Shown piece after piece: positions 11,524 to 59,350 of a stretch of 64,000 nucleotides of DNA. The notes under the pieces are model-generated. The model searched no databases, was not told the origin of the DNA, and saw only the letters and a list, made by a program, of their open reading frames with translations. A program made the translations under genes and the position numbers. Source of the stretch: Pezicula radicicola (Eukaryota > Ascomycota > Leotiomycetes > Helotiales > Dermateaceae); the NCBI GenBank assembly GCA_003008705.1, contig PDUO01000016.1, positions 807,975-871,974 on the forward strand, read 5' to 3'. Position 1 is the stretch's first letter; each line of letters opens with the position of its first letter.

Positions 11524-13635
11524 TCATGCCGTCTCACTGGGAGCTTGTCGCCAACTTGCCTCATCGATCATAGCCTTTGGCCCAACATAGGTCTTTCCTC
11601 CTACGAGCCACCATATTCCAGCAAAGATGGTGATCGCACCTGTGATAAGGCTCGAATAATTCATATTCACAGCCGTAACAGGCATTGAGTATGGGAAACC
11701 TATTCGCGACTCGCGTGTTAATATTCCCTCCTGCTTCGTGACTTAGAAGTAGTGGAGCCTGTCTCAAGAGTAGAGACATGCCGTAACGCCTAAAGGATTC
11801 TGTGGGTGTCACTTACAATAAATAACAACAAATACAATAATGTACAGAGAACTGATGATGTTGACGGTATAGCCCACGGCGTTTCCCATTCGATATGATC
11901 CGGGCCTCATGCTGTTGTTGTACGGTCCAGGAGGTAGACAAGAGCGTGAAAAGCGGCGAGTGAAAATAAATGGTGCAATTGCAGCCAAATATGAGAGCGT
12001 AGAAAGGATGACGAAGGATCCAATGAAGGCGTTGAATGCCGTGGAAGAGCCAACGTAAATACAGCCAAGGATCGTAGAAAATACTGCACAAGCAAAGGTC
12101 GAATTGAAGGGCATATGAAATTTTGGCGAGACGACACCAAGTGTGGTCGAAAAAGGCACTGCGCGGTCTCGAGCTAAAGTCCAGAGAGTTCGCCCACAAG
12201 TGATATAAGTCCCAATCAGAGTACAGAATATCGGCACCAGAATAATGAAGAGAAGGCCGATAGTTCCAGCGTTAGATGAGGTCGCCTGAGCATAGATCTG
12301 TGTGAGGGGAAAGTATGCAGCACCCAGTACATCATCCAGATTCCTGATCGCGTAGAAGATCGCTATCATATAAAATAAAGCAGTGAAAAATCCTATGACC
12401 ATTTGAGCTAGCAAATTTTCAGTTAGCGGTCTCAATATCTACTTGTTGGAAAGAAATGACCAACCTGCGATTGCTAGCGGTATGTTGCGTCTCGGGTTTG
12501 GGATCTCTTCTGCTAAATGCGAGACGCAGTCTGGAGTTCCGACTGCATATGCTCCATTCAACATGCCGGCTAGAAATACGAAGCCATTCGAGGTATAGCC
12601 TGTCTGATTTGACCAGTCGGCCCATACAAAGGACGAAGGGGCATATCCCGACCCTTTTGAATGAGGCATAACAGCACACACAGTAATCGTAATGAAGACA
12701 CCTCCTAGAATGAAGAATAGGCCTATGTTGCTATGATAAAGTCATCGATACAATACAGTATTTTCATATAATCTTTGCGAACTTACTTAATCATGGGGAT
12801 AAGCCTATTGCCTAGCAACTATAAGTACAAGTCCAGTAATGAAATCAAGATGTAGGCATACCAAAAAGCACAATACCGCAGGATATCCAAGTTGATATCA
12901 GGTACGCGATAAAAACATGCCATCGCTGTTGAACAAAGTCTGGGTGAGTGACAACATACATTGCAACGCATATATTTCCGGTAATGCTCGCCATAGTTGC
13001 TATATACTGTTAGCCACAGCTTAGTTATATTGATACAATGCTCACCTGAAGCGCACATCCAAGCGAATGTGTTCCAATAACCAGCAAACCAACCACATAT
13101 ACGTCCGTATTTTGGCCCGGGAGTGATTGAGGCCCAGTGGTAGACACTAAGGATGTAAGCAGTTGTCTTGAGTTTTGAGTTTCGGAGGGCTATACCCAGA
13201 GGACGAAGGCATTGAGCTTGCTGTGACTGTTAGTTTTTGGTGCTAACTAAGGAAGTAAAGGAAATCGCCCTACCAAGCTCTGCTAATGAAGCAGCAACTA
13301 GCCAGTAGAAGAAGCTCACGACAATAAACTCGTAAATGACGCCAGGCAGTCCTCCATTACTGTAGCGATATGTCAGAATAGCACCTTGCTACTTTCAAAT
13401 AGTCCTACTAAATTGCAACTGCAATTGATCCGCCCAAAGCTGCCCAAGTGTTACCAGTTACTATGCCTACTGAGCATATGGATAGCAACGAATGGAGGCG
13501 CTCTAGTTCCTGTACATGGCCGGTTTCGTTGAGCTCGTGTAGATTTGCTTCGTGGTCTGCGTTGATTACTTTGTTCTTCTCGGTGTCTGCCGAGGGCTGC
13601 GAGGGTTCAGTGCGTTGTTGGGTGGATTGAGCCAT
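11524..13635 (-). CDS. APC-superfamily amino acid/choline/GABA-type permease
   Basis: Nine exons (minus order): 13635-13409, 13359-13274, 13220-13196, 13146-13046, 12999-12862, 12811-12787, 12730-12465, 12407-11817, 11699-11524; 544 aa, all phases agree. Two exons are only 25 nt long. Family signatures include GNTWAALGGSIAVAIYNGG, YEFIVVSFFYWL, AELASSMPSSSGVYHWASIT, FAGYWNTFAWM, EEIPNPRRNIPLAI, TCGRTLWTLARDRAVPFS and SYRMGNAVGYTVNIISSLY. About twelve hydrophobic segments are expected, so it is a plasma-membrane or vacuolar permease. The fungal clade contains GABA (Uga4), choline (Hnm1) and polyamine carriers; the substrate cannot be settled from sequence. The last intron (11700-11816, 117 bp) is longer than the others (46-57 bp). 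Confidence 0.85.
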
Positions 13636-35395: not shown

Positions 35396-37441
35396 ATGAA
35401 GGTGGGCTTCTTCCGAGGTTCGAGGGGCAGTGGCTGTGATTTACGACGGCAATGAGGCTAACAGAGGCTGTGTTTCTATCAGGCTCTTCGCAGGTCGATC
35501 AAGGGCGACAAAGACAACAAGGTTCAACATATATCCATAACGCCAAAGTCTGCCATTGCGATCGTACCACCGAAGAAGGTATGTGCTGTAAAGGGGTTTG
35601 GATTTTTGAGAGGCGAATCCTTCGCACAGATGCTAATATGATCAACAAGGTAATTCGCGCATTATACGATTATGAGGCGCAATCGAGTCAAGAATTGGGT
35701 TTCTCACGAGGAGACTTCTTCCATGTGATAGGGCGAGAAAATGATACTGACTGGTACGAGGCATGTAACCCGGCGCTACCAGATGCTCGTGGATTAGTAC
35801 CTGTTCAATTCTTCCAAGCGTTAGGAAAGACGGAAAGAGATAGTGGGCAGATGTCAGACAAGTCACCCGGCAGCAAAATACCAGACCACGACTCTGGATA
35901 TTCTGATACTGGTTCGACAATGGTAAGCCCTGATTCTGCACGCTTTTCGAAGTCGGCGAGCAAAGGAACGGGAGCGATGGTCTACGGAATTGTGATGTAT
36001 GATTTTGCGGCGGAACGACCTGACGAGCTCGAGGCCAAGGCTGGTGAAGCAATTATTGTTATTGCACAATCAAATCCAGAATGGTTCGTTGCGAAACCCA
36101 TTGGACGGTTAGGAGGCCCAGGATTGATTCCAGTATCATTTATCGAGATCAGAGATATGAGCTCTGGACAAGCGGTTCCCGATGCGCAGGAGGCAGTTCA
36201 GAGAGCGGGAGTGCCAAAGGTGGAGGAGTGGAAGAAGATGGCGGCGGACTACAAGAACAGTAGCATTACTCTCGGAAAATTCGAGGTGCCAAACGGAAGT
36301 CCACAGCAGACAGGCTTGGAACAGGGTATGGACCGTATGAGCTTACAGCAAGGTGGCCGACAAAGTCAGCAGAGTGGCCAGGGCTATGTAAGTCAAGGAC
36401 TTTGAACTTGGATGACCGATGCTGATATTATGATAATAGCAAGACAGACAATCACAGCAAGCCAGAGGCGTCAGCCAGCAACCTCAGCCAAATCAGCAAA
36501 ATCCTTACGGCCCAGACAAGTCTACGTCCCAACTCTACGCTCCCATCTCCGCACAAATACCAAGGTACTGTTTTGCGGAGGATAAGTACTGGTTTGTTAT
36601 CGAAGCAGCTTTGGAAGATGGGCGACATTGGGAGCTGTCGCGGTACTACGAAGACTTTTATGATTTCCAGATTGCACTTTTAACAGAGTTCCCGGCCGAG
36701 GCTGGTAATACTGGCACCCAGAAAAGAACTCTACCATACATGCCAGGTCCAGTCAACTACGTGACCGATGCGATCACAGAAGGGAGACAGCACAACCTCG
36801 ACGCTTATGTCAAGAATCTTTTAACTCAGCCCCCTTATATCTCGAGATGTACACTGGTAAAGCAATTTTTCGCACCGCGAGAAGGAGATTACGAAATGGA
36901 CCCCAACGCAATGGATGAGGAGTACAGATTATCTCAAGGCTCGGGGCAGTCCTCTAATGATTCTCCAACAAATGCAGCTTCACGACAAGGTTCGCAAGGA
37001 AATCTGAACGGCGCTGGATATGGTGGTCTTTCTGCCGCTCCCGCTCGGCAGTCTCCAGGTATGCACCAGAGAGGACAACCTTCATTGTCCGCGAATGGCG
37101 GTCCTCAAGGACCTACGCGGCAGACTTCCTCTTTATCTCAACCCTCTAACCAATCTTTATCTTCAGGTCTGAACAGCCAGCAACAACAGGCGTCTGCGAT
37201 GAAAGTGAAGATCTACTTTGGTGATGATCTCATTGCCATCCGCGTTCCTACCGATGTTCAGTACCAGCAGCTGTACGAAAAAATTCAAGATCGTCTCAAG
37301 ATCCCCCCCGGTGAAGAGCTAGCCTTGTACTACAAGGATGAGCCAAGCGGGGATAGAGGAAATCTAATGAGCGATAATGATCTGGACACTGCTTTGAGGA
37401 GAAATGACAAGCTGATCATTTACGTCGAATACATGCCATGA
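35396..37441 (+). CDS. BEM1: Polarity scaffold protein BEM1/Scd2
   Basis: Four exons: 35396-35401 (only ATGAAG), 35483-35578, 35650-36387, 36440-37441; 613 aa. The start MKALRRSIKGDK matches fungal Bem1. SH3-1 is VIRALYDYEAQSSQELGFS...WYEACNP; SH3-2 is YGIVMYDFAAERPDELEAKA...WFVAKPIGRLGGPGLIP. The PX domain begins IPRYCFAEDKYWFVIEAALE (Arg/Tyr phosphoinositide pocket, RYYEDFYDFQIAL). The C-terminal PB1 domain runs from MKVKIYFGDDLIAIRVP to KLIIYVEYMP. Bem1 holds Cdc24, Cdc42-GTP and PAK at the growing tip. A Gln/Ser-rich linker separates PX and PB1. Confidence 0.95.
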
Positions 37442-42828: not shown

Positions 42829-42883
42829 GAAGCTAAGCTAGGGCCTAATCCGGGATCGAACCGGAGACCTCGAAGCTAAGCTA
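42829..42883. repeat. 12-bp direct repeats flanking a 31-nt tRNA-Pro 3' half
   Basis: GAAGCTAAGCTA occurs at 42829-42840 and again at 42872-42883. Between them, minus strand, are 31 nt identical to tRNA-Pro from base 43 through the discriminator base, without the 54-nt T-loop insert and without CCA. This looks like a target-site duplication around an inserted tRNA fragment. Confidence 0.7.
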
Positions 42884-42940: not shown

Positions 42941-43099
42941 CCGTAAAGTGGGGGCGCGCTCTACGTCGAAGAATAAAACAATTAAATAACTAAACAACTA
43001 TTAAATATAAATAGTTAAAATTTAGTAAATTCAGTCAGAGACATTTCAAAGCAAAGAGATACAAAAACAAAACAAAAAAAATATTGGGCCTAATCCGGG

Positions 43100-43153
43100 C
43101 TAAGAGTTTAGTTAGAGTGACAATCATTTTAATATAGTAATATGTCAACTTAC
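43100..43153 (-). other. Spliceosomal-type intron inside tRNA-Pro T loop
   Basis: 54 nt on the minus strand, beginning GTAAGTTGAC, with TCTAACTAAAC as branch site 12 nt from the end, and ending CTCTTAG. Length and all three signals equal those of the mRNA introns in this window (46-57 nt is commonest). Removing it gives a perfect 5-bp T stem and 7-nt loop. The same junction, without insert, is present in the tRNA fragment at 42841-42871. Confidence 0.75.
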
Positions 43154-43175
43154 ATCGAACCGGAGACCTCTTACA

Positions 43176-43188
43176 GTTTGAATCTAGA
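43176..43188 (-). other. Canonical tRNA intron next to the anticodon of tRNA-Pro
   Basis: 13 nt (TCTAGATTCAAAC) placed between bases 37 and 38, the standard site for the tRNA splicing endonuclease. TCAAA can pair with the anticodon-loop TTTGG, the usual anticodon-intron helix. tRNA-Pro(UGG) also carries an intron in yeast. Confidence 0.75.
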
Positions 43189-43224
43189 CCCAAAGCAAGA
43201 ATTCTACCACTGAACTATCAGGCC

Positions 43225-44201
43225 TGTTTGTTATATTTGTTGAGGTAGGAATCTTTATTTGAATACTTGTTGATAACTTCGGCTAGGATATGAATTGAGC
43301 ACTTTGGTGGGTGACTAGGATATTTTCGCTTAGTTATACTCTTCCCTTCGTACCTTACCCCTTCGTACGTATGTTCCTCGTCGTTTCTGGGGAATATCAA
43401 GCTAATAGATATGTAGTAATAGTAAACTGGTTTGATCTGAGTAATTTACTGGATTTGAACACCTGAATTATCTTCCACTTAGGAGAACGCACTTTACGCC
43501 TAAATAGTACTTGTCTGTTTAGCCATGAAGTAAGCGAGATGATACTAGGTGGTTGCAATCTAGGAAACTGGCATCTAAGATACTATGCTGACAGCTTTAT
43601 TTGTAGACACATGGAGTATTAAACTTTTGAATTTTCCCACTCAGACATATCGGCAAGCGTCAGCAGTTAGCAGTTAGCAGTTGCTATTTAATGGGCCAAG
43701 TACTTCGTAAACATATTTACTTTAGTACCTTTATCTCGCTTCCTACTGGGTCATATCTTCCGCTGCACTCCATCAAGATTTCTAGTAGCTTCTCTGCTGA
43801 AATTTTTGGTAGTTCGGTACAAATTTAATACAGATTTAGAGATTTGGATAGTTTTGCTGTCTTTAGTTTGATTTGTCTAAGTAATCTAAATATTGGCAAT
43901 ACCTAATACTTTGAGAGCACTTGTTCTATGTATTTAATGTTCATTTCAAGTCTGGATGATACTTCTACGGAGAGGAAGCTAACTTTGATATAAAGTGACC
44001 TCTTGCTACAACCTCAGCTCGCCTAGGTATAAATCCGGGGGCTAAGGACTCGCTTACAGGCCCAACCAGGTACTAGCGAAAACAAGCATTTTCCTCACTG
44101 ACCCATCGTGCCTTTTCCATCGCCACCTACCCCACACCGGGCATCTACAATATCCATCTCCGCATCGATCAATAATTGGCCTCGGTCGAGGCTGAAGAAC
44201 A
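43225..44201. other. AT-rich intergenic region
   Basis: No gene. A 7-bp tandem AGTTAGC (three copies) lies near 43662-43682. Confidence 0.5.
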
Positions 44202-45230
44202 ATGCCCCCTCTGTATCTTCGACAAGAATTCCCGACGTTGAAAGCCTTCAAAGAAGCCCTCCATGCCTGGGCCATAGAGGCCCATTTCGAGCCGCGCATC
44301 CTCAAATCCGACACGGGTCGCGTCCGAGTTGGCTGCAAACGCGATCCGGATTGCCCCTTCGTGATAAGATGTAATTGGGAGCGCAGAGGCCAGCGCGAGC
44401 CATTGGCGAGGATCACCGTGTTGAGGGAGAGGCATACCTGTTTGAATGGCGAGGTGGATGGTTGGGTTGGTACTGCTGCCGCCGTCGGGATGGGTATGAT
44501 GCCCAGCCAGCATGGACATATGCAGCAACCTGGAGATGGAATGAATGATGGCGGAAATATCGTTGGCGGCGCGCGGCTTATTGGGCAGGCTCCTGGGCCT
44601 GGTCAAGCTGTCGTACCAATGCTGCCAAAGGTTCAGAGGAATAGCGCATCCCGATTGCCATTCTTGATGGACATCCTACCACGAATAATGAATATCACGA
44701 AAGAGACGACACCGGTGGAGATTAGGGAGTGTATGTTGAGGGAATATGGCGCTGAGGTACATCTTCAACAGTGTAGGAGGGCCAAGACTGAGATATTGAA
44801 GAAGATGGCTGGGGAGAGAGGAGAGGATCAAAATATGAGCGATCAGCAGGCTCAACAACAACATCAACAACAGCAACAGCAGCAGCAACAACAGCAACAA
44901 CAGCAGCAACAACAGCAACAGCAGCAACAGCAACAACAACAACAACAACAACCACCTCAGGACTTGAGCATGGATGGCATGGGTGGTGACCCTGATGCAA
45001 ACAATCTGTTTGCCAATGTCAATATGGGCACTCCACATCAAAGCCCGAATCCTTTTACGCTACACAGTGCACAAGGGCACAATGTGACCCCAGTACCTCA
45101 GAAGCCAGCTGCCACCGCATTGAATGCTGTTGGCGAGACACCAGTAAGGTGTCCATACTGCGTCAATCACCGTTGGCTTAGGAGTATCAAGGATGCTGTT
45201 GATCATATGTCTATGCATGTGGTCGTCTAG
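44202..45230 (+). CDS. FAR1/MULE-type DNA-binding domain protein with long polyglutamine tract
   Basis: Intronless, 342 aa. Residues 8-75 (FPTLKAFKEALHAWAIEAHF, VRVGCKRDPDCPFVIRCNW, ITVLRERHTC) form a FAR1/WRKY-GCM1-like zinc fold with Cys...Cys...His-x-Cys ligands, related to the DNA-binding part of Mutator-like transposases. A polyQ tract of about 35 residues (CAA/CAG runs at about 44856-44953) is followed by a C-terminal CPYC...H-M-S-M-H finger-like motif. The transposase catalytic core is absent, so it is more likely a domesticated regulator than an active element. Target genes unknown. Confidence 0.72.
   Translation: MPPLYLRQEFPTLKAFKEALHAWAIEAHFEPRILKSDTGRVRVGCKRDPDCPFVIRCNWERRGQREPLARITVLRERHTCLNGEVDGWVGTAAAVGMGMMPSQHGHMQQPGDGMNDGGNIVGGARLIGQAPGPGQAVVPMLPKVQRNSASRLPFLMDILPRIMNITKETTPVEIRECMLREYGAEVHLQQCRRAKTEILKKMAGERGEDQNMSDQQAQQQHQQQQQQQQQQQQQQQQQQQQQQQQQQQQQPPQDLSMDGMGGDPDANNLFANVNMGTPHQSPNPFTLHSAQGHNVTPVPQKPAATALNAVGETPVRCPYCVNHRWLRSIKDAVDHMSMHVVV
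44856..44953 (+). repeat. CAA/CAG microsatellite encoding polyglutamine
   Basis: Mixed CAA and CAG codons in frame with the FAR1-like gene; the reverse strand gives spurious poly-Leu and poly-Val ORFs. Confidence 0.9.
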
Positions 45231-51998: not shown

Positions 51999-52921
51999 AT
52001 GGATCATCCTCGATTGCCTTATCATCCGAGTGTTTCACCAGACCCAACACCATTCGGATCACCCAGACGCAAATGCATCCCATGTGATGATGTGGGGAGT
52101 GATTGTCTTGGCCCGGTCCCAAAATGCGACCGTTGTACCCAAATGAACATACATGACAGCTGGTGTATCTATGACGAGCCTGAAGATTGTCTTCTACCAC
52201 ATGATTTTCAGCGTTTCCTTTGTTCTTCTCAACTTCCATCATTGCATGATCGGCCTCCAAGTCCGGTTAGTAATCAGCGAAGAAGAATATACGGCCCTTA
52301 TCCCTCGCTAGCTTTNNNNNNNNNNNNNNNNNNNNNNNNNNNNNNNNNNNNNNNNNNNNNNNNNNNNNNNNNNNNNNNNNNNNNNNNNNNNNNNNNNNNN
52401 NNNNNNNNNNNNNNNNNNNNCAGCGAAGAAGAATATACGGCCCTTATCCCTCGCTAGCTTTGCCGTCTTCTAGTCGATCGGATAATCAGTTGGATATCTC
52501 ACGTCCCTCATTCCCGGGTGCTAGACTCCGTATTCCTCCTACTTCTTTACGCGACCGACCCGGTAATCATTCAAGAAACAGATCTCCCCCTCTGAAACTC
52601 CCCGATAGTGAGGGCTCTACGCTTTCCGCTTCTCATAGAGATTCCAATGATCAGTCACCAAGCTCAGTTCACTCACCTCTGAGTAGCATGGACCTTGATG
52701 CTCCAGCATCTGATAACCAAATCGACGATCAGCCAGAAAGTGCAGCACCTGACGAGCAACCTGTACCATCTGAGGCTGCATCACCTATACCAGAATCTCA
52801 AACTTCGTCACCTCTATCATCTCCACCACCCTCCCCACAACGTCTACAGTCTCTACCTCCTGTACCGTCACGGAGATCTACTCGCCTTGCAAATCGCAAC
52901 TCTTCAACAGCCGACTCATAG
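51999..52921 (+). CDS. Small Zn(II)2Cys6-like protein interrupted by an N gap
   Basis: The frame opens MDHPRLPYHPSVSPDPTPFG, then has C-x2-C-x6-C-x6-C-x2-C-x9-C (RKCIPCDDVGSDC to IHDSWC), close to fungal Zn2Cys6 spacing. The rest is disordered, rich in Ser and Pro, ending STRLANRNSSTADS. 105 Ns lie at 52316-52420. The 41 bases before the gap (52275-52315) are repeated exactly after it (52421-52461). Removing one copy and the Ns joins the two halves in frame, giving about 258 aa. No fungal transcription-factor middle domain is present; a DNA-binding role is only possible. Confidence 0.6.
52316..52420. other. Assembly gap (105 N), probably false
   Basis: Both flanks carry the same 41-bp sequence beginning CAGCGAAGAAGAATATACGG, as expected when two overlapping contig ends were not merged. 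Confidence 0.85.
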
Positions 52922-57230: not shown

Positions 57231-57665
57231 GAGTAGGAGAGAAGGGAAGAGATATGGATTGACTCTGCTAGTTGGCCACGTACTTTTGGATTTACCCATC
57301 GGTTTTTGTAGTGGAAGTGTCACATAGGTAGACTATTTGATATGAATTAATGAACCTTGGATATTTCATTTGCCTTAACGGTTACTGAGCCGACAAACTG
57401 TGGTACCGAAAGCACATGGAGTATCAGCGCCATGGACGCCAATGCGGGATAAAATGTGGCGATGAGGAAGGAGGCCCTAGTCTGGGTGTTCAGAAACTGC
57501 ATGTTCCTTCCCTATATGACTCGAACGGCAAGGCAAGACAAGCGAGGGAACAATTTCAGGAAGACGTTGTGCTTCCAAAAAGAAGAAGCCAATCTCAAAT
57601 CCCTATATAAGAAAGATTCAAGATAGGATAATTGAAATAGAAAGACAGAGTAGAAAAAGAAAGGA
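57231..57665. other. Intergenic region
   Basis: 3' side of the sulfotransferase-like gene. Its end holds the A-rich tract that is the T5 terminator of the minus-strand tRNA-Ser (57658-57654). Confidence 0.5.
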
Positions 57666-57802
57666 CGTCACCGGAGAGATTCTATGATATGAGGGATTAG
57701 TATGATGTCCGAGGACTTGCTTGGTAAGAAACTCACCGAACTCCCGCTTCCGAAGAAAACACCTTAGCAAAGTGTCGCATTAGACCGCTCTGCCACAGTG
57801 AC
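57666..57802 (-). tRNA. tRNA-Ser(GCT) with a spliceosomal-type insert in the T loop
   Basis: Read on the minus strand from 57802: acceptor GTCACTG; D arm beginning GCAGAGCGGTCTAATGC; anticodon arm ACACT-TTGCTAA-GGTGT (anticodon GCT); long variable arm with CTTCGGAAG; T stem GGGAG; loop TTCG/AAT; T stem CTCTC; acceptor CGGTGAC; discriminator G. The acceptor pairs over all 7 bp only when 57682-57736 (55 nt) is removed; the exons then total 82 nt, normal for tRNA-Ser. CTTTCTTTTTC follows as a Pol III terminator. There is no anticodon-side intron. Confidence 0.87.
57682..57736 (-). other. Spliceosomal-type intron inside tRNA-Ser T loop
   Basis: 55 nt on the minus strand: starts GTGAGTTTCT, contains the near-ideal branch site ATACTAATCC 15 nt from the end, and finishes ATATCATAG. 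It sits between T-loop bases 57 and 58, two bases from the site used in tRNA-Pro, and shares no obvious sequence with that insert beyond the splice signals. Confidence 0.75.
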
Positions 57803-59350
57803 TTGTCTTGTTTGTTGTATAGGGAATGCCTTATTGTTGTACATGACGAAGCAAAGTCGTGGTTGAGATGTTTGCCTGGCCTTGTCAGGGTTAAGGTTGT
57901 ACTAATCATCTAGCTCCCGCGTCCGGCCATAGTTCAAGGAAAGAACACCTCGTGGGACTCAAGCAAAGAGCATAGGGATCAGAATTATGAGCAGCTGCAG
58001 CAGTATTGCATCTGAAGAAGGCTCTTGGACCGTCTCTCTAATGAAGCCTTTTAACAGCATCTATATTCGTGAATTGGAGTCATCTCAGATGCTTCGAAAG
58101 CTCAAATTAATTCTAGCGTGTGTAGTAAATACACGCTGTCTAGTGAAGGATCGCCCTGAAGTCTAAGTCTAAGTCTAAGCTTGACTTAAGAAAAGTAGGT
58201 TTGTGCTGGGGGAAATGGCAGGGGTATAACGATGTGCAACAAAGCAGAGGCATTCTTCTGAAAGTGCTGTGTGTGCTACCACAGCCTGGGGTCTGCCTTA
58301 ATGGTCTAGCCTCGTCATCTTCTACTCGACAGTTTACTGACAGCGCTGTCGAATCAAAGTTTTGTGCTAGGAAAGTGACAGGGGTGTATAGACATGCGAC
58401 AAAAATTGGAATCATTCGAATATGACGAGGTACCGCCTGCTTTACACACATCATAGGTCTACTTCAATAGTAACATCCCCACCTCAGTAGAGTTCAGCGA
58501 CAAACTAGACAGAGAAGCCTTGGTCTAATGCAGGTTGTGCTAGGCTACAGACATGCAACAATCAGAAAGTGTTCGCTTTAAAGTATAGCGCCTTGTGTAA
58601 CCCCATCTCGCCTGCTCCACTTCAAAGTTTGGTTTGCCCTAAGATACATCTAACAATGCCCTCATCTAAGGTTCTCTTTACACTAGACAGGGGAGGTGCG
58701 ATGTGCGTCAAAAATGATATTCTTAGTGTGATAGGAGCAAACTCCCTTGCATTGTTCCTAGTTTGATAGGTATACAAGGCGGACTAGCTCCTTCATCTAG
58801 GTATCCACATGGACTTCCCATCTTTTGACCAGTATGGCGACACGCATCAAAAGCCTTTTAAGAAACTTAAGTCAACGTCCTTGACGTCTTCCAGGTTCGG
58901 CAGGAGTCGCTCATATAGCGCTCTAGACCAAGATTTGCGAGGCTGCCCATGCTGTCGCCAAACCTCAGTAGGACCATAGAAACACCTCCGACTTTCTCGA
59001 AGTTACAAGCACAAGTAAATATTCGGTTGTCAATCCACCGGATATTCAGCAATCCCTTGCGCTTTCAAGGCCGACTGCCGCTCATTTCGAATATAAACTA
59101 CATCGATGCCGATGCTTCAAAAGGCAACCCGCATTGGCGACTTATGTTAGGATTATCCTGTCCTGGATATTCTCTCTGTCAACCCTTTCCCGGTTCATCA
59201 TTGCCTGCGTTATTTTATTCGGGTATTGCTAACATCGATCGTAGTCTATATATCCCTCGCAGACAGGAACCTATCGGCATCATCACCATAGTTTATTGTG
59301 GCTAGCTTGGAAATGCTACACTTACTCTATCGCTTCATCAAGTGGCCAAG
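57803..59350. other. Intergenic region with imperfect repeats
   Basis: No gene. Diverged repeats around TTGTGCTAGG...ACATGCGACAAA occur near 58199, 58359 and 58531, and four AAGTCT hexamers near 58156-58180. Confidence 0.4.

Follow-up and report, generated by a model that had tools for sequence, protein, structure and literature searches.

The tRNA-Ser(GCT) gene described here (57802-57666) lies on the minus strand of the window, by which we mean the whole analysed stretch of 64,000 nt (positions 807975-871974 of its contig, in an assembly of 61.0 Mb and 152 contigs). The gene is interrupted in the T loop by 55 nt resembling an mRNA intron, and a tRNA-Pro(TGG) gene of the same window is interrupted likewise (Table 1). 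The window content is fungal by domain architecture: the domain search revealed SH3 domains at 35440-36402 and then PX-PB1 at 36440-37438, an order which we take to be Bem1-like, and also Rad4, Vps36, SAC3 and thymidylate synthase. Two other features of the window were observed: a run of undetermined bases at about 52314-52419, translated as X, inside a stretch that looks coding, and an open frame at 44196-45227, about 1 kb from tRNA-Pro, bearing a MuDR-type transposase domain and a long glutamine run.

Table 1. Features of the two interrupted tRNA genes of the window, and insert sites of the interrupted tRNA genes found in the genome
Feature	Position in window	Strand	Insert site or remark
tRNA-Ser(GCT) exon 1, nt 1-57	57737-57802	-	66 nt including the long variable arm; single genome match
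mRNA-type intron of tRNA-Ser(GCT), 55 nt	57682-57736	-	T-loop site 57/58
Predicted 5′ splice site of the Ser intron, GTGAGT	57736-57731	-	
Predicted branch site of the Ser intron, TACTAAT	57702-57696	-	
Predicted 3′ splice site of the Ser intron, TAG	57684-57682	-	
tRNA-Ser(GCT) exon 2	57666-57681	-	remaining T-loop and T-stem nucleotides, 3′ strand of the acceptor stem, discriminator G
Upstream element CAACAAACA	57809-57817	-	common to other tRNA genes of the genome
T-rich run TTTCTTTTT	57654-57662	-	just downstream of the Ser gene; Pol III terminator-like
tRNA-Pro(TGG) exon 1	43154-43224	-	includes a 13-nt ordinary anticodon-loop intron (about 43187-43175, ARAGORN)
mRNA-type intron of tRNA-Pro(TGG), 54 nt	43100-43153	-	T-loop site 59/60; GTAAGT...CTAAC...TAG
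tRNA-Pro(TGG) exon 2	43086-43099	-	
Intronless copy of the tRNA-Pro 3′ part	42842-42871	-	T arm uninterrupted; 214 bp downstream of the gene
Ser-GCT			57/58; one gene
Pro-TGG			59/60, three copies; 60/61, one copy
Pro-AGG			9/10; two genes
Leu-AAG			9/10; five copies
Leu-CAA			11/12; one gene
Leu-CAG			6/7; anticodon read by eye, ARAGORN label SeC
Leu-TAG			7/8; one gene
Arg-TCT			10/11; one gene
Arg-ACG			52/53; one gene
Arg-TCG			52/53; one gene
Thr-TGT			4/5; one gene
Lys-TTT			9/10; one gene
Lys-CTT			61/62; one gene
Val-TAC			47/48; two genes
Trp			10/11; two genes

The preliminary description had proposed a tRNA-Ser(GCT) with a 55-nt T-loop insert, and this was confirmed with exact coordinates: when 57736-57682 was removed, ARAGORN called a complete tRNA-Ser(gct) with a score of 115.7. 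The spliced gene reads GTCACTG TG GCAGAGCGGTCTAATGC G ACACT TTGCTAA GGTGT (variable arm) GGGAG TTCGAAT CTCTC CGGTGAC G. In the unspliced window no tRNA was called by ARAGORN, and with anticodon-loop introns allowed the score was 0 both at the place of the Ser gene and for the window's tRNA-Pro. Among 4060 removals of 35-90 nt in the Ser gene, the top score was reached only by the product given above, and none was better; this product can be obtained from two boundary pairs, one of which is GT-AG. The statement that the acceptor and T stems pair perfectly only after removal stood for the T stem alone, because the halves of the acceptor stem are the ends of the gene and pair with or without the insert. 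The word “perfectly” was also loose: the stems pair throughout, with one U-G in the acceptor stem and one G-U in the T stem.

No intact GCT serine tRNA, whose presence elsewhere, together with a lack of spliced reads here, would have marked this gene as a pseudogene according to the preliminary description, was found by BLAST or by a pattern search. The 66-nt exon 1 had no match in the genome besides itself at E up to 1, and a pattern of the D arm and the anticodon of Ser(GCT), searched with up to 3 mismatches, matched only the gene at 57802-57666, with no mismatch (the reversed control gave two chance matches). In standard decoding, AGC and AGU are read only by the GCT anticodon, and therefore we infer that the gene should be essential, if the assembly is complete. 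Since no second Ser(GCT) gene was found, the decoding of AGC and AGU should need removal of the insert. Of the interrupted genes found in the genome, the Ser gene loses most to its insert: 5 of the 9 B-box letters remain vs. 7 when spliced.

The tRNA-Pro case likewise proved to be real, and the T-loop sites of both genes, numbered by eye, are those given before. Beside the intronless copy downstream of this gene (Table 1), a second intronless tRNA-Pro 3′ half was observed at C67:463734-463764, about 140 bp downstream of an intron-bearing tRNA-Pro. The occurrence of such a 3′ half downstream of an intron-bearing tRNA-Pro at two loci points to a duplication of gene and 3′ half together.

The genome was searched with RF00005 (62 rows), and 63 of 2516 first-look candidates were scored, so that the tRNA counts are lower bounds; these loci were read, and further ones were obtained by using the genome's own tRNAs as DNA queries. 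In the scan, every GT-AG segment was removed and ARAGORN was asked for a new tRNA across the joint. In total, at least 25 tRNA genes of the 61-Mb genome bear a GT-AG insert of 50-61 nt outside the anticodon loop; they represent 15 isoacceptors and 12 sites, in 16 isoacceptor-site combinations (Table 1; site numbers read by eye). Thus, the repeated gain of mRNA-type introns suggested by the two cases of the window is supported, and the phenomenon is larger than first seen. A genome-wide T-loop pattern gave 35 matches (23 for the reversed control), of which 6 are tRNA genes of this set and the other 29 gave no tRNA, so most of the interrupted genes carry their insert elsewhere than in the T loop. 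The fetched loci comprised 70 distinct intact and 25 interrupted tRNA genes (95 in total), a non-random sample which does not include full-length DNA matches that were not fetched, nor six Phe and two further Trp genes set aside for want of upstream sequence, all eight being without such inserts.

Typed queries for Phe, Asp, Glu, His, Tyr, Cys, Val and elongator Met had no matches in the genome; six Phe copies were recovered by a pattern search, and all lack a GT-AG insert outside the anticodon loop. The five full-length matches of initiator Met are intact, and none of the 47 best-candidate 5S genes scored had an insert.

After removal of the insert, ARAGORN called a tRNA in 25/25 cases, in 20 of them together with an anticodon-loop intron. 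The 12 sites span 4/5 to 61/62 and all differ from the canonical 37/38, with inserts at 4-11 or 47-61 and none at 12-46; mid-gene inserts may escape the RF00005 search, but at least a few would then be expected among the matches of the DNA queries. The scan missed the second Val gene (L055), which was recognised by its likeness to the first (L058), from which its boundaries were set by eye, and the L058 boundary is itself a choice, as one scan gave a GTAAGT start and later ones a start 4 nt further in with equal score. Two other loci, L054 (C77) and L059 (C109), were left out of the 25 because their splice ends are atypical and they can also be read as having an anticodon-loop intron; the inserts, of about 60-82 nt and close to the anticodon, fit neither the GT-AG type cleanly nor the ordinary type clearly. 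An unusual arrangement was observed in the tRNA-Trp gene L115 (C71:711320-711540), where the region of the anticodon-loop intron contains tandem copies of the gene's own anticodon and variable-loop sequence.

The inserts share the signals of mRNA introns. All 25 are GT-AG, with a length of 50-61 nt (median 54). The 5′ splice site is GTAAGT in 15, GTAAGC in 8, GTGAGT in 1 and GTTAGT in 1 (GTAAGY in 23/25), and the 3′ end is TAG in 11, CAG in 7 and AAG in 7, five of the seven AAG ends being at site 9/10, the edge of the A box. The putative branch motif is CTAAC (14), CTAAT (7), TTAAC (2), TTAAT (1) or TTGAC (1), with the branch A 10-17 nt before the end. A CTAAY at 10-17 nt from the end was present in 21/25 inserts vs. 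83 of the 6014 GT-AG stretches of 50-61 nt on both strands of the window, and its combination with GTAAGY in 19/25 vs. 4/6014, one of these four being the tRNA-Pro insert itself. The bare YTRAY motif at the same distance (25/25 vs. 382/6014) is weak evidence for a branch site. None of the 29 ordinary anticodon-loop introns of the same loci is GT-AG; one of these 29, of 66 nt, is the ARAGORN reading of the Val gene on C3 and not a plain intron of this kind. A likely mRNA intron of the window itself (36388-36439, one example) has 52 nt and begins with GTAAGT; a wider collection of window mRNA introns by open-frame joining gave 104 clusters, mostly noise, and was dropped.

The GT-AG ends in 25/25 inserts arise partly by construction, because most inserts came from a scan demanding GT-AG. 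For this reason we added an unbiased test in which removals of 35-90 nt were made at every boundary of each gene. The GT-AG removal was among the top-scoring ones in 20/25 genes, with 1-5 ties; another removal scored higher in the remaining five (Leu-CAA, Arg-ACG, both Val and one Trp). In the window and 62 loci, the GT-AG removal scan gave 16 places with a score of at least 105, including one gene twice (L012, L056) and the two dubious loci L054 and L059, whereas the control pairs gave 1 (CT-AC), 0 (GA-TG), 3 (TG-GA) and 7 (AG-GT) places. Ten of the control places coincide with loci already obtained by GT-AG removal, and the remaining one is L055, so that no new gene emerged from them. One more tRNA call of the GT-AG scan, at 13107-13259 on the plus strand of the window (score 100), was taken as chance.

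Taken together, these data lead us to conclude, with a probability of about 0.88, that the insert in the tRNA-Ser(GCT) gene is a U2-type spliceosomal intron, that its host is a nuclear tRNA gene of the Pol III type, and that the genome has at least 25 introns of this kind. Two other classes were rejected. A group I intron, whose catalytic core comprises a few hundred nucleotides, is ruled out by the length of 50-61 nt, and no Rfam family was found at the gathering score in the window; a canonical tRNA intron is ruled out by position, given 12 sites other than 37/38.

If the introns are spliceosomal, the genes might be transcribed by RNA polymerase II, to which spliceosomal removal is normally coupled; some of the inserts, moreover, damage the internal boxes. 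Indeed, one or two consensus letters of a box are lost to the insert in 18/25 genes (12 in the A box, 6 in the B box, 7 in neither), and transcription must therefore tolerate such loss. The idea that the introns spare the boxes was discarded, as 18/25 lower one slightly and only about 8-14% (A) or 0-13% (B) of sites would do so. However, the flanks of the interrupted genes argue against Pol II. The motif AACAAA was found within 60 nt upstream of 21/25 interrupted and 45/70 intact genes vs. 41/2000 random stretches, the upstream sequence of two of the 25 being only 54 and 40 nt long. A TTTT run begins within 40 nt downstream of all 25 interrupted genes, and TTTT is present in the first 40 nt downstream of 66/70 intact genes vs. 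265/2000 random stretches. In both the upstream element and the T run, the interrupted genes resemble the intact ones. TATA-driven tRNA transcription from upstream is known in some plants and fungi (PMC3978253, in part). Within the introns, T4 runs occur in 2/25 vs. 374/2000 random stretches and T5 runs in 0/25 vs. 89/2000, numbers too few to claim avoidance. Furthermore, the U6 RNA of fission yeast is spliced although made by Pol III (PMC10484740, in part), which speaks against the need for Pol II; on this evidence, Pol II transcription of the genes appears unlikely.

The U6 genes of the genome under study are also interrupted by mRNA-type introns: there are two in L101 (C3:394362-394585) and three in L102 (C109:377193-377402), the last of which is GC-AG (boundaries set by eye). 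The first introns of both genes contain the exact A-box consensus (TGGTCTAGTGG and TGGCTGAGTGG), which was found in 47/5000 random 58-mers and in 0/25 tRNA introns; it looks as if a Pol III element had moved into the first intron of both U6 genes. U6 introns being of a known type, their presence suggests that the fungus can cope with introns of this sort in genes transcribed by Pol III. A further U6-like gene, L100 (C146:17702-17803), has no intron and is diverged from the other two; it may be an old copy, a pseudogene or a contaminant.

The inserts could also be ectopic tRNA introns, cut out by the tRNA-splicing endonuclease at BHB-like structures, with the GT-AG ends incidental. Ectopic introns in the D and T arms are indeed known in eukaryotes, namely in nucleomorphs and in the red alga C. 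merolae (PMC4090602, in part), and a crude test of the BHB central helix did not separate the classes: all 4 pairs were formed in 1/25 inserts and 4/29 anticodon-loop introns, and 3 pairs in 8/25 and 8/29, respectively. However, an endonuclease that reads RNA structure needs neither a length of 50-61 nt, nor GTAAGY, CTAAY at 10-17 nt from the end and a final AG in mostly unrelated sequences, and GT-AG ends are absent from the anticodon-loop introns compared (0/29). The U6 genes of this genome bear similar introns, and the inserts of the Guillardia nucleomorph are much shorter, 3-24 nt (PMC4090602, in part). These differences make endonuclease cleavage of the inserts highly unlikely.

It may further be supposed that the interrupted genes are pseudogenes and that the functional tRNAs derive from intact copies. 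Such copies are present for 13/15 isoacceptors, including Pro-TGG (two), Leu-AAG (one) and Trp, and short arm insertions in eukaryotic tRNA genes are mostly ascribed to pseudogenes in the review PMC4090602 (in part). Against this stand the Ser(GCT) gene, which has paired stems and no second copy found, and Val-TAC, for which no intact gene was found in the genome. Where exons were compared with intact paralogues they were nearly or fully identical (97% for Pro-TGG on C95, 100% for Leu-AAG on C114), and the acceptor stems are fully paired in 20/25 genes by script and in the remaining five (Ser, Pro) by eye. In two families, paired changes were found across the insert: T6-A67 in the Thr-TGT gene L052 vs. 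A6-T67 in the intact L015, and G7-C66 in the Leu-AAG gene L069 vs. A7-T66 in the four other copies. Combined with the shared splice signals of the inserts and with flanks like those of intact genes, this renders the pseudogene explanation even less probable. Least probable of all is an assembly error or a contaminating organism, for which the 152 contigs and the divergent U6-like gene on C146 might speak, since the cases are spread over many large contigs and several gene families, their intron sequences differ, and exon sequences are common to intact and interrupted genes.

The spliceosomal introns would act in the Ser gene as follows. Transcription would proceed from the upstream CAACAAACA-type element and the internal boxes up to the T run; the spliceosome would then recognise the 5′ splice site, the branch site and the AG, the insert would be removed, and TTCG would be joined to AAT to restore the T loop. 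The anticodon-loop introns of other tRNAs would presumably still be cut by the tRNA endonuclease.

As to the origin of the introns, those of the Leu-AAG genes at site 9/10 (L009/L066, L067, L068, L069 and L082) are unrelated to each other (z -2.3 to 2.0), whereas the exons are nearly identical; a sixth copy, L065 on C114, has no intron at this site. The three Pro-TGG introns at 59/60 are clearly related (z 7.3-9.2) and form the only such group. With Pro-TGG left out, the 197 between-gene intron pairs gave a median z of 0.2 and a maximum of 3.2; lacking shared sequence between genes, the introns therefore do not form an introner family. Old gains with fast divergence and repeated gain at favoured sites both fit these data. 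The introns were probably acquired on many occasions; the simplest route would be reverse splicing of an mRNA intron into a tRNA and return to DNA, as proposed for U6. On balance, we favour the wider view that spliceosomal introns have entered Pol III genes of this fungal lineage many times over (16 tRNA isoacceptor-site combinations, five introns in two U6 genes), that AGC/AGU decoding is probably obligately spliceosome-dependent, and that a precursor would often need both the spliceosome and the tRNA endonuclease; this we hold with less assurance than the nature of the Ser insert itself.

Several known systems resemble the one described here. Fission yeast makes U6 with Pol III and splices out of it an mRNA-type intron for which a reverse-splicing origin was proposed (PMC10484740, in part). 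Like the tRNA inserts, the fungal U6 introns are of the mRNA type and interrupt a small structured RNA made by Pol III, but the hosts here are tRNA genes, and many families at once. Reverse splicing into U6 is explained by U6 being part of the spliceosome, which tRNA is not. Spliceosomal introns of fungal U3 snoRNA genes have canonical splice sites and RCTRAY at 6-36 nt from the acceptor, and copies with and without an intron coexist in one genome (PMC5832005, in part). The tRNA inserts show the same canonical splice sites, a fitting branch distance and copies of both kinds, while the fungal U3 introns are confined to U3. As of 2017, frequent interruption by an intron was known among small structured RNAs for U3 and U6 alone (PMC5832005, in part). 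Spliceosomal introns are also named in titles on ascomycete rDNA and on a Rhodotorula U2 snRNA gene (reference list of PMC2586383, in part). These too are mRNA-type introns in fungal noncoding RNA genes, but their hosts are not tRNAs. Ascomycete rDNA is transcribed by Pol I.

Among tRNA genes, introns in the D and T arms, several per gene, are known in cryptophyte and chlorarachniophyte nucleomorphs, C. merolae and Crenarchaeota; their removal is attributed to splicing endonucleases, BHB-type motifs being described for archaea and C. merolae, and for the 3-24 nt inserts of Guillardia the review calls the splicing mode unknown (PMC4090602, in part). No splice-site or branch consensus is described for ectopic tRNA introns in the available part of this review, whereas the inserts here share such signals, and its main text, to the extent available, has no word starting with “spliceosom”. 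The canonical eukaryotic intron at 37/38, removed by the Sen complex (PMC4090602, in part), is a second intron in 20/25 of our genes and differs from the inserts in position and in its ends (GT-AG in 0/29). In the literature searched, which took in few subscription journals and no preprints and was accessible in part, nuclear tRNA genes with spliceosomal introns were nowhere reported, and priority is uncertain.

These findings bear on how tRNA genes are detected and understood. Finders that allow only anticodon introns miss such genes, as ARAGORN missed both the Ser and the Pro gene of the window. To our knowledge, the splicing of nuclear tRNA, by proteins acting at 37/38, and that of mRNA, by the spliceosome, are held to be separate; spliceosomal-type introns in 25 of the 95 counted tRNA genes (a non-random sample) would join the two pathways. 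Translation would then be directly sensitive to the spliceosome, and an action of the spliceosome on Pol III transcripts beyond U6 is suggested. The many gains in short genes of known structure also bear directly on how introns are gained, as the insertion sites can be compared with intact paralogues base by base. If the wider view is true, the tRNA genes of this fungus would preserve a history of intron gain through reverse splicing in which no reading frame limits the insertions.
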